A stretch of DNA of 64,000 bases, from contig NZ_DRFV01000007.1 of assembly GCF_011050365.1 (NCBI RefSeq), positions 62,001 to 126,000 of the forward strand. Reading direction: 5' to 3'. Positions 54,044-59,794 of the stretch are shown piece after piece. Below the pieces are notes generated by a model, which was not told the DNA's origin, ran no database searches, and saw nothing but the letters and a program-made list of their open reading frames with translations. The stretch comes from Pseudohongiella sp. (GTDB taxonomy: Bacteria > Pseudomonadota > Gammaproteobacteria > Pseudomonadales > Pseudohongiellaceae). The number at the start of each line of letters is the position of its first letter. Position 1 is the first letter of the stretch. The position numbers and the translations under genes were made by a program.

Positions 54044-54544
54044 GTGAAAAACGAAGATCAGCTCAGCGAAAAGGAATTGACCACTGCGTTGCGGCGGCGT
54101 GCCATGGATTATCTGGCACGCCGCGAGCACAGTCGGTATGAGCTGCAATGTAAATTGCGGGAAAAGTTTGAGATCCCCGGTGATGCATTGATCAGCTCGG
54201 TGCTTGACAGGCTTGAGGCTGATAATCTGCTCAGCAATACCCGTTTTGCCGAATCCTATGTGCGCTCCCGCATCGGTCGGGGTTACGGTCCGCTGTACAT
54301 CCGTTACCAACTCAGGCAACGTCAGGTCGATTCTGTGCTGATCGATCAGGTATTGACGTTTGATGAGGATGAATGGGCAGATGTGTTGGCGGATGCGTTG
54401 GCAAAAAAGGTCGCCGATATGCCGGAGCGGGGTAGCAAACAATGGTTGAAATTGCAGCGCTTCAGTCAGTCGCGTGGTTTTAGCCTGTCACACTTCAACG
54501 CGGCCTGTCAGGAAAAATCGGCGGCAACAGCTAAATCTCAATAA
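54044..54544 (+). CDS. recX: Regulatory protein RecX
   Basis: From GTG 54044 the 166-residue, helix-rich protein shows the three-helix repeats of RecX (AMDYLARREHSRYELQCKL; VLDRLEADNLLSNTRFAESYVRSRIGRGYGPLYIRYQLRQRQV). It caps RecA filaments and limits their growth. It is the same length as the E. coli protein. The last 14 bases overlap the convergent truncated-globin gene. Confidence 0.94.
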   Translation: MKNEDQLSEKELTTALRRRAMDYLARREHSRYELQCKLREKFEIPGDALISSVLDRLEADNLLSNTRFAESYVRSRIGRGYGPLYIRYQLRQRQVDSVLIDQVLTFDEDEWADVLADALAKKVADMPERGSKQWLKLQRFSQSRGFSLSHFNAACQEKSAATAKSQ

Positions 54545-54992
54545 TTTGCGGCCGCAAGCCGGCGAGTCTTTCCAGTAAACGGTTCTGTGCGCTGATCGGC
54601 GTGCCTGCCTTGTCCATGGCGTCTATCAGGTCTTCCACCACCGCGTTGAACTCGGCTGAGTTGATGTCCATGCCCCGGTGCACCAGCACCATACTGTCAC
54701 CGGTGTATTCGCAAGGGCCATCGGCGATAAAGCAGAAGTGCTCAATGATTTTTTCCCGAAAGCGTTCAACATTGGAGTCAGCAAATCGATCAAACACGCG
54801 TGGGTCGTAGGCGATCTCCATGATGAAATTATCTGCGATCTGCTCGATGCCCGGCTCAGCGCCCAGCGCCTGATACAGGTTGTCATCCGCGCCTGATGGC
54901 TGCTGTATGGCACAGGCACTCAAGGTCAGAGCGGCGCACAGTAGCATGATGGTCAGCATTGCTTTTGATTTCATTAAACGGTTCTCGCTCAT
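54531..54992 (-). CDS. Group I truncated haemoglobin made as a lipoprotein
   Basis: The 153-residue product has a signal sequence with lipobox LSAC (Cys27, Ala at +2, so outer-membrane sorting is predicted). A group I truncated globin domain follows from LYQALGAEPGIEQIADNFIM through DPRVFDRF to the candidate proximal haem histidine His105 in LVHRGMDI. Truncated globins bind O2, NO or peroxide; nearly all are cytoplasmic, so a lipid-anchored form is unusual. It is the last gene after the cupredoxin and DUF3034 genes, whose stop codon overlaps its ATG. A second start, ATG 54974, would keep the signal sequence. Confidence 0.87.
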   Translation of the reverse strand: MSENRLMKSKAMLTIMLLCAALTLSACAIQQPSGADDNLYQALGAEPGIEQIADNFIMEIAYDPRVFDRFADSNVERFREKIIEHFCFIADGPCEYTGDSMVLVHRGMDINSAEFNAVVEDLIDAMDKAGTPISAQNRLLERLAGLRPQIIEI

Positions 54993-55873
54993 TACAGGTT
55001 GGCCTGCAGGGAGAAATACACTCCGCGTTGATCGGGTGCGCCGGCAATATCACCGAGGTCCACCCAGGCCGTTGTGAATGACAGGCGCTTGTTGGGGAAG
55101 TAGGCCAGAAACAGATCGCTGGCATTGTTCTCGGTCAGAGCTGACAGATTGTCCGGCTTTTGCCGCCACTCAAAACCGACTGCGACGCTGCGACTGATAA
55201 ACATCGCGCCGGCTACTTCCATATTCACCTGTCTGTCCTCATCATCGCCGCCGTAACCCAGAATGCCGAACTGGTTGCTATTGCCATAACGCAGATTGAC
55301 GTTCAGCAATGTGGTGCGGTGGCCAATGCCGTTGAGCCAGGCCCGGGCCACACTGAGCGTGTAGTCGGTACCACGGGTGTCGTCAGCGCCAACGGATAGT
55401 GCTACCGCTTCATCACGCAGTTCACCATGTTCAACACCTACGGTGATTTGCGGCAGGCCGTCATAAATAATATCGCCTGCGACCTTGTAGCGCAGAGCGA
55501 TGCGGTCCTGGCGAATCTGCAGATCGGCGGCTTTGATCAGAAAATCCTGCCGCGCATATGACAGTTCCAGCTTGTCGTGAACGTTGAAAGAACCGCCAAC
55601 TACATCCAGTTGATAATCATCGACCTGGGCCTGACTGGCAAACACAGTGCCGCCCAGTTGTCCGCTTTCTGCGTAGGAACTCAACGTGGCCCAGGGTGTC
55701 AGGCCGCCGCCGCCGGCACCACTGATACTGGACACGCCACCGGTTCCCTTGATTTTGCCAAAGCGCTTGTTCTGTGCCTCATCGGCGCTGGCGGCGACCG
55801 GCAATGTAACGGCCAGTGCGCCACTCAGAAGCAGTGTCAGGGCCAACGAGGAAAGCATATTGCTTTGACTCAT
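54992..55873 (-). CDS. DUF3034 family envelope protein
   Basis: This 293-residue protein has a signal peptide ending in VAASADE, a Gly/Ser-rich segment (GTGGVSSISGAGGGGLTPWA) that is the DUF3034 hallmark, and then alternating strand-like sequence ending in an aromatic-containing, Leu-terminated strand (GVYFSLQANL), as in outer membrane beta barrels. Function of the family is unknown. It is translationally coupled to the cupredoxin gene (overlap 55870-55873) and to the globin gene (one-base overlap), which argues that the three products act together in the envelope. Confidence 0.85.
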   Translation of the reverse strand: MSQSNMLSSLALTLLLSGALAVTLPVAASADEAQNKRFGKIKGTGGVSSISGAGGGGLTPWATLSSYAESGQLGGTVFASQAQVDDYQLDVVGGSFNVHDKLELSYARQDFLIKAADLQIRQDRIALRYKVAGDIIYDGLPQITVGVEHGELRDEAVALSVGADDTRGTDYTLSVARAWLNGIGHRTTLLNVNLRYGNSNQFGILGYGGDDEDRQVNMEVAGAMFISRSVAVGFEWRQKPDNLSALTENNASDLFLAYFPNKRLSFTTAWVDLGDIAGAPDQRGVYFSLQANL

Positions 55874-56547
55874 TGGGTTCCCCCGGGCAGCAGGGCGCGA
55901 AAGCCGAATTGCTGATCAGGGTTGACCACCGGTAATGTCACTGCAATGCGATCGCCGGAAGTGTTGTTGCTGACGTCCAGTTCGTAGACGTTGCCGGGCG
56001 TCTGCAGCCAGGGGTGCCATATATGCAGTGTCTGCGGGAGCTGTGCCATGCCGGTCAGCGCGATGTTGCCGGCAGCGTCGCTGAGCGTGGCATCGTGCCA
56101 GTCGCTGACGTAAACGTAGGCCACCATGCTGTCATGAATATTACAGCCAAGCACGGCAATGCCGGGTGCTTCAAAACGGACCGGCTCCACGTTTTCGTCT
56201 GCATACAGTGGTGTTGAGAACTGCTTGATGTCGGAGAACGAATACACATGGTGGCGAACATTGTCACTGTTGGGGAAATTGACCTGCTGTCCCGGTGATA
56301 TCAACAGAACCATGGGCACAAAGCGGCGGTCGATCTGATCGATTTCCGCCACGGGTGCATCGGTTCGGGATTCTGCCGGGGTAAGTCGTGCCTCGACCAC
56401 AGCCAGTGATACCGGGTTGCCGTCTTCGTCCTGCAGCACAAGATTCAGTTCCGCTGCGCTCAGCGCAGTGCTGAACAAGGCGGTTATTGCCATTGTCAGA
56501 GGCAGGGCAAGTCGTTGAAGGAGATTTCTAAGTACTGGATAATTCAT
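55870..56547 (-). CDS. Cupredoxin-like periplasmic protein (amicyanin-type copper site)
   Basis: A 225-residue protein with a signal peptide ending LSAAE carries a blue-copper domain. The probable ligands are a histidine in NVRHHVYSF (His99 or His100) and the C-x2-H-x2-M set Cys135, His138, Met141 in LGCNIHDSM, the spacing found in amicyanin. Similar proteins are often named methylamine utilisation proteins, but no methylamine dehydrogenase is near. The N-terminal third (about 33-75) may form a separate Ig-like domain. It is first gene of the cupredoxin-DUF3034-globin operon and divergent from a membrane cyclase. Confidence 0.88.
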   Translation of the reverse strand: MNYPVLRNLLQRLALPLTMAITALFSTALSAAELNLVLQDEDGNPVSLAVVEARLTPAESRTDAPVAEIDQIDRRFVPMVLLISPGQQVNFPNSDNVRHHVYSFSDIKQFSTPLYADENVEPVRFEAPGIAVLGCNIHDSMVAYVYVSDWHDATLSDAAGNIALTGMAQLPQTLHIWHPWLQTPGNVYELDVSNNTSGDRIAVTLPVVNPDQQFGFRALLPGGTQ

Positions 56548-56566
56548 TAAAAAACATCGCTGGTTA

Positions 56567-56595
56567 TTGTCATTGCAGAAGATTGTGCCTATCTT
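56567..56595 (+). promoter_or_regulatory. Sigma-70-type promoter for the cyclase gene
   Basis: TTGTCA (56567-56572) and TATCTT (56590-56595) are separated by exactly 17 bases. Transcription should begin near 56602, leaving a leader of about 48 bases before ATG 56650. The promoter lies in the 102-base gap shared with the divergent cupredoxin operon, so one regulator could control both. Confidence 0.65.
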
Positions 56596-56649
56596 AGCGG
56601 CTGCCTACAAGCAATTGCCAGCCCCCTGAAACACGGGCGCCAGAATTCT

Positions 56650-58644
56650 ATGACCACCAAAGCTCGCTCACAGTTTAAATTCTCCAGCATTCGCACGCGA
56701 CTGATCGTATTCCTGTTGCTGATGTTGTTGCCGGTGCTCAGTGCGATCTACTGGTTTGTTGACAGGGAGAATACGCGCTACACCGATGAAACGATCAATT
56801 CCTACCTTGATATCGGTGCTGACGTTTTTGACTTTAGTCGTGAGGAGCATAAAAACACCTTGCTCACCATCAGTAATGCGCTGACCCGCGACTGGGGTTT
56901 TCGTAACGCATTTGGTGCATCCGATGCACAGACCATTACCGATGCCGCGCAGACGCTGCTGGTGCGATCTTTTGGTGCTGCCGACGTCATGATCATTACC
57001 GACATGTCCGGACGTATCATTGTTGATACCAGCGAGCCGGGACTGGAGGCGCTGCCGCCAGCGTGGGTTGACATGATCAACAGCGCTGCCAGTACCGGTG
57101 ACGGGGTGGCTGATGATATTCTGACGCTGAATGATATTCCCTACCAGATGACAGTCATTCCGCTGTTTTTGCCCACCCCTGTGGCCTGGATCATCGCCGG
57201 CTTCCCGCTGGATGACGACTTTGCCAACAGCATTAAATCCAGTACTGCCTCAGAGGTATCCATCGTCAAGTATCTGCACCAGGCAGACGGAGCGCCAGTG
57301 CAAAAACAGGTGATCGCATCGACGCTGTCGGCAGCGGATGCTGCCAATCTGGCGCATGGTCTGGATGCCGGTATCTACAGTGAAACCCAGCGCATCACGA
57401 TGACCGATGCCGACTACGGCACGCTGGTGCGCTCGCTGACCGGCCGCACTGAGCAGGGCGAGGAAATTGTCGCGGTCATCCAGCGCTCCTATGAGGAGAA
57501 CCAGGCCAACCTGGCAGCACTGAGAGACCGTCTGTTTGATTTTTCGCTGGCGGTGGTGGTCTTGAGCCTGCTGGCGGTCATTGTTCTGGCCCGGGGTTTT
57601 ACCCGGCCTGTGTTGCGACTGGCCAGTCGTGTGCAACGTATTGAAGGCGGCGACTATAGCTCGGCCTTGCCCCAGGAGCAGGTTTGGGGTCGCGATGAAG
57701 TGGCTGGGCTGGCTGACTCCATTGACAACATGGCGTCGGGGCTGGCGGAAAAAGAGAAAGTCCGTGATCTGCTGGGCAAGGTGGTTTCGCGTGAAATTGC
57801 CGACGAGCTGTTGAACAGCCGCATCGAGTTGGGCGGTGAGGAAAAAGTAGTGTCGGTATTGTTTGCCGATATCCGCGGCTTTACCGCGCTCAGCGAACAA
57901 CAGTCACCCTCGCAAACGCTGGCCATGCTCAATACCTGTCTGGAAAGCATCTGTTCGGCAATCGAAGCGCACGGTGGCGTGGTGGACAAGTTTACCGGCG
58001 ATGCTGTGATGGCGCTGTTCGGGGCACCCATCGGGCACCAGGATGACGCGATGAGGGCAGCACGGGCGCTGTTGGCCGTTCAGGACGCCATGGCCGGCGT
58101 GAACCAACAGTTGCGCAGTGACGTGGGCAATGAACAGCCGGGATTGCAGTTGCGCCTGGGCGCGGGTTTGCATACCGGACTGGTGGTGGCAGGTAATATG
58201 GGCTCGCGTAACCGGATGAATTACACCGTGATTGGTGATGCGGTCAATCTGGCCTCGCGTCTGGAAGGCCTGACCCGGCACTACAATGTCCACAACGTCA
58301 TCAGTGAGGCCAGTCGCCGGGCGCTGGGTGAGCAGGCGCAGACGTTTGCCTGGCGTGAGCTGGATCTGGTGCGCGTCAAGGGCAAGCAGGAGCCGGTGCG
58401 CATCTACGAGCTGGTGGGTCGGCGTGACCAGCTTGATGCTCAGACGCTGGCCGAGTTGACGCGATTCGAGGAGGTTCTGACCTTGTATCGGAGCAGGCAA
58501 TGGGACGCGGCGCTTGGTATACTGCGCGCTTTGTCGGAAGCCAATCCACTGACCCTGTATGAGCTGTACAGCGCACGGATCAGCGAGCTTCGCGACACAG
58601 TGTCTGCGGATTGGGACGGCGTGTATGTCTTCAGCAGTAAATGA
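56650..58644 (+). CDS. Membrane-bound class III adenylate/guanylate cyclase with Cache-like sensor
   Basis: The 664-residue protein has a membrane segment at about 18-36, a periplasmic domain of about 255 residues with Cache-like features (VMIITDMSGRIIVDTSEPG), a second membrane segment near 296-315, HAMP (about 317-370) and a class III cyclase domain (about 395-580). Metal aspartates are in LFADIRGFTAL and DKFTGDAVMALFG; YTVIGDAVNLASRLEGL supplies base and transition-state residues. Lys in DKFTGD and Asp in VIGDAVN favour ATP as substrate. A C-terminal helical tail follows. It is divergent from the copper/globin operon, a possible sensor for it. Confidence 0.92.
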   Translation: MTTKARSQFKFSSIRTRLIVFLLLMLLPVLSAIYWFVDRENTRYTDETINSYLDIGADVFDFSREEHKNTLLTISNALTRDWGFRNAFGASDAQTITDAAQTLLVRSFGAADVMIITDMSGRIIVDTSEPGLEALPPAWVDMINSAASTGDGVADDILTLNDIPYQMTVIPLFLPTPVAWIIAGFPLDDDFANSIKSSTASEVSIVKYLHQADGAPVQKQVIASTLSAADAANLAHGLDAGIYSETQRITMTDADYGTLVRSLTGRTEQGEEIVAVIQRSYEENQANLAALRDRLFDFSLAVVVLSLLAVIVLARGFTRPVLRLASRVQRIEGGDYSSALPQEQVWGRDEVAGLADSIDNMASGLAEKEKVRDLLGKVVSREIADELLNSRIELGGEEKVVSVLFADIRGFTALSEQQSPSQTLAMLNTCLESICSAIEAHGGVVDKFTGDAVMALFGAPIGHQDDAMRAARALLAVQDAMAGVNQQLRSDVGNEQPGLQLRLGAGLHTGLVVAGNMGSRNRMNYTVIGDAVNLASRLEGLTRHYNVHNVISEASRRALGEQAQTFAWRELDLVRVKGKQEPVRIYELVGRRDQLDAQTLAELTRFEEVLTLYRSRQWDAALGILRALSEANPLTLYELYSARISELRDTVSADWDGVYVFSSK

Positions 58645-59794
58645 TCTGAATAGTACCGTGCCCAAACGGATCGCGTTAATCAACCCGACCAAGTTTCTGG
58701 GTAACCTGTTGCTGGCAGGTGGCCTGATCCAGCAATTGTGTGAGCTTTGTCTGCAGCATGATTCCGAGCTGTTGCTGGTGCTGGATGAATCGTTTTGTGA
58801 TCTGGTCGGCGATGCCTGGCCTGGCGCCCGCGTGGTGTATTATCCGCGGCGGGCATTGAGTCATGGGGTCTCGGTTGACAGTGTCAGGCTGTGGCTGCGT
58901 TGCGTGCGGCAGATCCGGGCGTTCGCCGCTGACCTGGCCTTCACGATAGAAGAAGATTCGGTGTCTCATCGTCTGCTGCATGCATCAGCGGCGCGCCGCA
59001 AAGTCAGCAGCACTGTACACCGTTACCACTGGGGTTTTGATCAGGTGCTGGACATTCCGCGCAGTGGTCGTGCACCCGGCAAAGAGGGTATCTGGTACAG
59101 TTATCGTGATGTATTTGCCGCGCTTGGACTGCCCATAGCGGCCGTGACAACAGATCGCTCGCCAACAGTGCCTGCCTATATGTCATTGTCGCCGCCAACC
59201 CCTGACCGGGCATTGCTTGAGCGGCTGGCGACGAGCGGTCTGGAGCTGACACAACCGATAGCCGTGCTGCATGCCGGTGCCAGCAAGCGCTACAAACAAT
59301 GGCCGGCGCAGCAGTTTGTGGCGCTTGCAGTCATGTTTGCCGCGCGTGGTTATCAGCTTGTGCTGATAGGCGCGGGGCAGCGTGATAGCGAGGTCAACAC
59401 CAACATCATGCGGGCGCTGGCCAGCACCGGCGTTACCTGCGTTGATTTGTGCAACCGGTTGACGCTGGCAGAGCTGGCGTCGCTGTTGCGTCGTGTTGAA
59501 ATCATGGTGGGTAATGACAGTGGGCCGTCGCATCTGGCATCAGCGCTGGGCGTTCGTGGTGTGGTACTTTTCGGCCCGACTGATCTTGCCATCTGGCGTC
59601 CATTGGGCAGGCAGACGACAACGCTGCAGCACAAACACCTGTGTGCACCTGATTGCACCCGACACCACTGCCAACAGCAATACATCTGCCTGCAGTCAAT
59701 CATGCCGCAGCAGGTGCTGGCGGCGCTGGGCTTGAATTTGGGCCTGAATTCAGACCCGGGCCTGGGATCGACATCGAACACTGAAGAAAAATGA
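58625..59794 (+). CDS. Glycosyltransferase family 9 (heptosyltransferase-like) protein
   Basis: The start is ATG 58625 inside the cyclase gene end; an earlier in-frame ATG at 58559 would overlap by 86 bases. The 389-residue protein has the GT9 pattern: [24 protein letters not shown] at the N-terminus, [23 protein letters not shown] in the middle, and [26 protein letters not shown] near residue 300. Such enzymes add heptose or related sugars to lipopolysaccharide core. Four cysteines near the end ([17 protein letters not shown]) are common in the family. The last residues contain a 12-base duplication (LGLNLGLN). It is followed by rfbB. Confidence 0.88.

Follow-up and report, generated by a model that had tools for sequence, protein, structure and literature searches.

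We analysed a 64,000-nucleotide stretch of a Pseudohongiella sp. genome (positions 62,001 to 126,000 of contig NZ_DRFV01000007.1; hereafter the window) in which genes for an exported truncated globin, a DUF3034 protein and an exported cupredoxin-like protein lie divergent from the gene of a membrane class III nucleotide cyclase. With moderate confidence, we propose that these proteins form a haem/copper sensing module in which the cupredoxin gates a periplasmic dCache receptor, the messenger being cyclic AMP (cAMP) here and cyclic di-GMP (c-di-GMP) elsewhere. The initial annotation of this DNA had described an envelope haem-copper module tied to second-messenger signalling, and this is borne out by the recurrence of four gene families and by an invariant histidine and invariant copper ligands in the encoded proteins.

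Conservation of the gene set

The searches detected DUF3034 in 19 of 56 relatives, in 18 of 369 genomes of a class sample and in 39 of 398 genomes of a phylum sample, the own genome being included in each. We compared the loci of all these hits except that of the own genome and four phylum hits already present among the other loci, together with a named set made up of the best 80 of at least 575 confirmed loci, picked by similarity to the window's clade. A profile search placed the globin directly downstream of DUF3034 at all 18 loci of the relatives, 10 of the 17 class loci, all 34 phylum loci and all 80 named loci. The two genes adjoin at 44 of 51 loci in the two taxon-based samples and at 137 of 144 distinct loci once five repeats are removed; the rare adjacency that the initial annotation had named as evidence against itself was not found. 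The cupredoxin was detected by profile at 17, 10, 28 and 73 of these loci (relatives, class, phylum and named set) and the sensor at 11, 9, 27 and 72; because of short contigs, the locus counts for globin, cupredoxin and sensor are lower bounds.

Clustering of the neighbouring genes gave the same four families. Among 162 loci, a set that includes loci centred on the sensor, the sensor was present at 133, DUF3034 at 125 and the cupredoxin and globin at 118 each, while the next family, like all neighbour families unannotated, reached 17. The commonest order is cupredoxin, GGDEF-EAL sensor, DUF3034 and globin on a single strand. The fourth gene elsewhere, which the initial annotation had missed, is mostly a GGDEF-EAL gene located between cupredoxin and DUF3034. 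In the six phylum-sample loci that come from other classes, cupredoxin and sensor form a pair transcribed away from the DUF3034-globin pair. Across the 56 relatives, the sensor occurs in 18 of the 19 genomes with DUF3034 versus 9 of the 37 others (Fisher p 4e-7, uncorrected for kinship). An apparent inserted gene between DUF3034 and globin at L062, L097, L104 and L111 was an artefact of over-long open reading frames (ORFs).

Two loci of this collection deserve separate mention. A metagenome-assembled genome titled Klebsiella pneumoniae carries a DUF3034 locus with 61% identity to the present one (L074, CAMCRC010000019.1), and its label looks wrong. In a Halomonadaceae locus (L093, 9332-10480), the module is followed by an extra GGDEF gene on the opposite strand, with similar-sized ORFs in related loci.

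One sensor type with different outputs

The periplasmic domains of the window cyclase and of the GGDEF-EAL proteins are homologous. A profile built from 76 GGDEF-EAL periplasmic domains, HAMP excluded, matched the window cyclase with E 5e-32 and nine other distinct cyclases of the genus with 1e-34 to 5e-27 (ten rows, one a repeat); it also matched a Ser/Thr-kinase protein, L061, with E 3e-15 (Z set to 5000; the best of five shuffled controls gave E 95). The sensor domain is present in 27 of the 56 relatives and occurs once per genome except in G029 and G037, a second row in G002 being part of the same gene. Since nearly all carriers have it once, it is not a promiscuous sensor.

Sorted by motif, the 136 sensor proteins (one identical pair included) comprise 106 of the EAL type, 21 class III cyclases, one of these with a divergent motif, and a single kinase; of the others, five have GGDEF only, two show a variant EAL motif and one is a fragment. 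The EAL-type proteins retain the exact GGDEF motif in 31 of 106 cases versus the EAL loop-6 motif in 89, and because of this the usual output is probably c-di-GMP hydrolysis. In a midpoint-rooted tree with several long branches, two of which meet, the cyclase-type sensors all lie to the same side of one branch (support 100/95). Pseudohongiella nitratireducens (G013, L029) has the GGDEF-EAL form inside the same genus as the window, which indicates replacement or transfer within the genus. From these sequence comparisons, the module appears to have kept its sensor and switched its output, with a cyclase on the homologous periplasmic sensor in the window's clade. Signalling through cAMP, as initially suggested, is predicted for this clade from its class III cyclase and would be exceptional for the module as a whole, GGDEF-EAL being the output of 106 of 136 sensors. 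Chance placement of the cyclase as a divergent neighbour was rejected in view of the sensor homology and the single cyclase clade.

Further arrangements were seen around these outputs. The kinase protein (L061, 8806-11409) combines the like sensor, HAMP, a weak cyclase-like stretch under the cut-off and a Ser/Thr kinase, and is encoded beside cupredoxin and DUF3034. In Methylophaga (L101, L105, L121 and L138), the gene of a second, GGDEF-only sensor follows the globin gene on the opposite strand. The own genome also encodes a protein with cyclic-nucleotide-binding and EAL domains (L290, 562-1878, on G000:C15), which could couple cAMP to c-di-GMP breakdown. Full-length relatives of this protein occur in 17 of 17 genomes of the window's family with DUF3034 versus 0 of 18 without it, a co-occurrence that follows clades and genome size, includes G013 with its GGDEF-EAL sensor, and is a lead only.

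The cupredoxin as candidate partner of the receptor

Of 139 sensor ORFs, 126 have a cupredoxin gene at a distance of at most 400 bp. The cupredoxin and the sensor also occur together without a DUF3034 match, namely in genomes G021, G026, G030, G031, G042 and G055. The cupredoxin-cyclase pair without DUF3034 was found in three genomes of genus g8, one of genus g2 and G042, and the pair in G055 has an EAL output. Because cupredoxin and receptor persist in genomes without DUF3034, the cupredoxin is the best candidate for a protein in direct contact with the dCache receptor. Such a distribution suggests two coupled pairs, one of cupredoxin and receptor and the other of DUF3034 and globin.

The cupredoxin itself contains the C-x2-H-x2-M motif at residues 135-141 and a further His at 99. 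The predicted type 1 copper ligands His99, Cys135, His138 and Met141 are kept in 136 of 136 aligned rows, which supports the copper protein proposed initially. The designation 'amicyanin-type' was too specific: no Pfam or NCBIfam family matched at E<=1, and the best PDB match was a weak one to pseudoazurin (E 0.1).

A number of observations weigh against a module gated by the cupredoxin. In genus g5 and in G040, a cupredoxin-receptor pair and a cupredoxin-DUF3034-globin set are on separate contigs, each with its own cupredoxin; the receptor paired with its own cupredoxin in g5 is a cyclase. Two genomes of the window's genus (G011 and G004; L222 and L223) keep the cyclase, and the trio is missing between it and recX, a gene named by eye. 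Thirteen of the 139 sensor ORFs have no cupredoxin inside 400 bp (one of them, L224, sits at a contig end), and among these are all five GGDEF-only sensors and both sensors of G037, a genome with two sensors and a cupredoxin beside neither. DUF3034 occurs without this globin at 6 of the 17 class loci, three of them near a PAS-type regulator (Pfam match for L057). Structural comparison of the sensor with VIA-align puts CitA and KinD ahead, with LuxQ (Z 14.9) level with many others. Many dCache domains bind a small ligand of their own, and the sensor described here may do the same.

The exported globin

The globin of the window matches PF01152 (Bac_globin) over residues 38-149 with 53.4 bits (cut-off 21, E 3.6e-14), and its best PDB match is a group 1 truncated hemoglobin (TrHb1; 9yg7, E 4.8e-16). 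It is the single Bac_globin match in the own genome. No second family scored above its cut-off in the 153-aa protein, which indicates that the globin domain is not fused to an output domain. A lipobox, LSAC, is formed by residues 24-27. An export-type N-terminus was recognised in 139 of 139 globins with a lenient pattern, and a lipobox in 106 of these; a stricter pattern found the lipobox in 81 of 106 globins. These patterns are not trained predictors, and some ORF starts are placed too far upstream. The initial assignment as a truncated haemoglobin with a lipobox holds on these grounds, and the same counts led us to reject a usual cytoplasmic TrHb1 whose start had been called wrongly. Placement of the module at the cell surface, also claimed initially, found no support: by the +2 rule for lipoprotein sorting, the globin lipoprotein is more likely on the periplasmic side.

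The proximal (F8) histidine, His105, is invariant in 106 of 106 aligned globins, and Cys87 and Cys94 are each kept in 105 of 106. The cysteine pair, which may form a disulphide, is missing from the three PDB TrHb1 alignments that were compared. Among the relatives' globin matches, 30 loci were taken for typing and 29 could be typed, L272 giving no match. A globin with Cys-x4-G/D-P-C was present at 9 of the 29, all in genomes with DUF3034; the remaining 20, including 2 from genomes with DUF3034, lack the motif.

HbN has a polar distal network of Tyr B10 and Gln at E7/E11, and its distal Tyr is tied to nitric oxide (NO) dioxygenation. In the exported globins, the distal positions are hydrophobic in all 106 rows: I/L/V at 57, F/L/V at 78 and L/F/I/M/V at 82, positions that we presume to correspond to those of the HbN helices. 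With this mapping, an HbN-type polar distal network is absent from the 106 rows.

These features bear on whether the module is catalytic. The globin and cupredoxin could carry electrons for periplasmic NO or O2 chemistry, such as NO oxidation, O2 reduction or detoxification, with DUF3034 anchoring the assembly or admitting substrate and the cyclase or GGDEF-EAL gene being co-regulated but receiving no input from them. Such a function would fit the invariance of the proximal His and the copper ligands, and periplasmic truncated-globin domains of cable bacteria have been proposed as oxidases in the accessible part of a report (PMC11976967). We nevertheless consider it rather unlikely. The distal Tyr is replaced by I/L/V, cupredoxin and receptor are found without DUF3034 and its globin, and outside the four families the commonest neighbour is present at 17 of 162 loci, a measure of recurrence among unannotated families.

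The predicted DUF3034 barrel

The DUF3034 protein matches PF11231 with 296.6 bits (cut-off 25, E 2.1e-88). Its mature part was modelled as an antiparallel 12-strand barrel with a predicted local distance difference test score (pLDDT) of 94.1 (model md5fd26663cd3; row L070 left out of the alignment), in agreement with the probable barrel of the initial annotation. The closest fold match is FapF (Z 20.2, root-mean-square deviation (rmsd) 2.8, 216 residues aligned), followed by KdgM, a COG4313 channel and NanC. The predicted fold, together with a signal peptide recognised by eye, suggests an outer-membrane barrel.

The barrel was also matched by PcoB, which is titled a copper transporter (Z 12.8, rmsd 3.9, 182 aligned). 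This raises the option of a module for sensing or handling copper. The dCache receptor would then be informed of copper loading by the cupredoxin, with DUF3034 serving as an outer-membrane channel related to copper and the globin as an accessory in redox chemistry. That the cupredoxin is the receptor's usual neighbour (126/139) agrees with this. But PcoB ranks only 35th, after FapF, KdgM, NanC and others, and among the unannotated 30 most frequent neighbour families, whose start sequences were inspected by eye, no copper gene was recognised; we regard this explanation as unlikely.

The resemblance of the barrel to channels (FapF, KdgM, COG4313) would equally suit uptake of haem or a small molecule, the lipoprotein globin capturing haem or ligand for a DUF3034 channel and the receptor sensing the delivered compound. 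At two loci (L033 by Pfam, L034 by eye), a TonB-dependent receptor gene is located upstream of cupredoxin-DUF3034-globin, as an uptake system might have it. These two loci belong to one genus, the only one where the gene was noted, no search for it having been made elsewhere, and the TrHb1-like proximal His suggests that haem is bound rather than transferred. Uptake seems to us improbable.

DUF3034 has a second context at L057, L068 and L069, where it is found without globin or cupredoxin and with a PAS-sigma-54 activator-like gene nearby (Pfam match for L057); L057 also has a Pyr_redox_2 oxidoreductase.

The cyclase and its periplasmic sensor

The cyclase consists of a first transmembrane segment (TM1), a periplasmic domain, a second segment (TM2; both segments by eye), HAMP at 312-365 and a catalytic domain at 400-582. 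The latter matches Guanylate_cyc (PF00211) with 86 bits (cut-off 21.9), and HAMP scores 30.6 bits (cut-off 25). The catalytic motifs are FADIRGF, DKFTGD and NYTVIGDAVNLASR, the Lys and Thr of which we take to mark a class IIIb adenylyl cyclase. The nearest PDB relatives of the catalytic domain are adenylate cyclases, and cAMP is the predicted product.

The initial annotation called this protein a Cache-HAMP cyclase. The class III cyclase and HAMP parts were confirmed by Pfam; a Cache domain was not, HAMP being the only match in residues 1-367 at E<=1. The dCache assignment comes instead from the AlphaFold model and from relatives. The model of the periplasmic domain, made from an alignment without row L112, has two PAS-like lobes on a long helix (pLDDT 94.7), which is a dCache arrangement. 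Its top Foldseek match is LuxQ, LuxP-LuxQ complexes being matched as well, and other structural matches include CtaA, DctB and Tlp3. When five GGDEF-EAL relatives were scanned with PF14827, four scored above the cut-off and one equal to it; the kinase protein L061 was above it, and a related cyclase (L214) and a GGDEF-only protein (L105) gave matches under it.

The own genome has two further PF00211 matches and a CRP/Vfr-like protein of 218 aa (L291), identified by reading its sequence. For these reasons, cAMP signalling is plausible in this genome and not private to the locus.

Locus layout

The four ORFs lie where the initial annotation had placed them, as three overlapping genes with a cyclase divergent across a 102-base gap (Table 1). 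Base 54992 is common to the globin and DUF3034 genes, and the DUF3034 and cupredoxin genes overlap by 4 bases (55870-55873). Downstream, the 3' end of recX (54044-54544, + strand, named by eye) overlaps that of the globin gene by 14 bases (54531-54544). Four sigma-70-like sites were found in 54400-58900 versus 2.3 expected, which is weak on its own; the TATCTT element of the site facing the cyclase is present in 7 of 10 aligned rows of the genus, the window included. The divergent region has one sigma-70-like site, and no CRP or FNR site was recognised there on inspection by eye.

Table 1. Features of the locus in window coordinates.
Feature	Position	Strand	Basis
Exported group 1 truncated globin, lipoprotein, 153 aa	54531..54992	-	PF01152, PDB TrHb1 matches, conservation
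DUF3034 protein, 293 aa, apparent signal peptide and predicted 12-strand barrel	54992..55873	-	PF11231, structure model
Exported cupredoxin-like protein, 225 aa	55870..56547	-	Ligand residues, weak PDB match
Divergent intergenic region, 102 bases	56548..56649	.	Coordinates
Promoter-like TTGTCA-17-TATCTT facing the cyclase	56567..56595	+	Sigma-70-like site search
Membrane class III nucleotide cyclase, 664 aa	56650..58644	+	Pfam, TM1/TM2 by eye
Periplasmic dCache-like sensor domain of the cyclase	56761..57543	+	Profile homology, structure model

Proposed mechanism

In the sensing module that we propose, the outer membrane would hold the DUF3034 barrel and, on its periplasmic face, the globin as a lipoprotein; their linkage and the model suggest a tight pair. 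The cupredoxin would act in the periplasm as a copper protein and would be the component most likely to contact the dCache receptor directly. A haem ligand or redox change at the globin could be passed on to the cupredoxin, which would then bind or release the dCache domain, and the signal would travel via TM2 and HAMP to set the catalytic output. At most loci this output would be GGDEF-EAL acting on c-di-GMP, probably by hydrolysis; the class III adenylyl cyclase of the lineage to which the window belongs would produce cAMP, readable by the CRP/Vfr-like protein of the genome. We favour NO or redox as the presumed signal rather than stable O2 binding. The sequence shows sensor and cyclase joined inside one protein, and it shows the linkage of the genes; we infer the physical contacts, the transfer from globin to cupredoxin and the direction of flow.

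A broader and more tentative proposal is that many Pseudomonadota possess an envelope-spanning gas or redox receptor in which an outer-membrane globin and a periplasmic copper protein gate the dCache domain, and in which the messenger is exchanged while the sensing half is unchanged: c-di-GMP would have given way to cAMP in Pseudohongiella and relatives, and possibly to a protein kinase in L061.

Significance and relation to known systems

The module is undescribed in the open-access literature searched, by titles and the starts of abstracts, a scope outside which most subscription journals lie. Within it, nothing relevant to the module was found on DUF3034, no paper joined truncated hemoglobin with cupredoxin and GGDEF, and none joined group 1 truncated hemoglobin with lipoprotein and periplasm. 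The parts are known; neither their assembly nor an exchange of output turned up there. DUF3034, named only as a domain of unknown function, gains fixed company and a testable role. The data suggest that the haem and copper status of the periplasm is read by exported proteins and relayed to second messengers, and a natural experiment is offered by a periplasmic sensor of one type that is joined to different outputs inside the cell. If the cupredoxin-receptor pair is as proposed, it would explain the triggering of an orphan dCache domain.

In LuxP-LuxQ, a periplasmic protein gates a dCache receptor. The present module resembles it in its dCache periplasmic domain, for which LuxQ is the top Foldseek match, and in having a separate periplasmic protein as usual genetic neighbour. 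It differs in that this partner is a cupredoxin instead of a sugar-binding-type protein, the output is a cyclase or GGDEF-EAL instead of a histidine kinase, and a globin and a barrel are linked to it. The recurrent genes beside the receptor are cupredoxin, DUF3034 and globin; no search for a LuxP-like gene elsewhere was made. Globin-coupled sensors and H-NOX systems have a haem protein feeding a c-di-GMP output. The module departs from these (cf. the accessible part of PMC8846402) in having a trans-membrane receptor and, as a protein of its own, an exported TrHb1. HmsC-HmsD is described in the same part of that source as a redox-sensitive periplasmic protein with a membrane diguanylate cyclase. 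It shares with our module the association of a redox-sensitive periplasmic protein with a membrane c-di-GMP enzyme, but the proteins differ, with multiple Cys pairs there and predicted haem or copper sites here.

IsmP-ImcA of Pseudomonas aeruginosa connects iron to c-di-GMP through a CHASE4 domain that itself binds iron, according to its abstract (PMC10904736). Both systems place a periplasmic Cache-like domain in c-di-GMP signalling with a response to metal, presumed for our module, and the IsmP CHASE4 domain was matched by VIA-align with Z 13.2; in contrast to our module, no cupredoxin, globin or DUF3034 partner is named in that abstract. In cable bacteria, periplasmic truncated globins are fused to multihaem cytochromes, as stated in the accessible part of PMC11976967. 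They likewise place a truncated globin outside the cytoplasm, but as a fusion and, as far as that part goes, with no receptor. We would place the module with receptor signalling gated by a periplasmic protein and do not regard it as a member of LuxPQ, the globin-coupled sensors or H-NOX systems.

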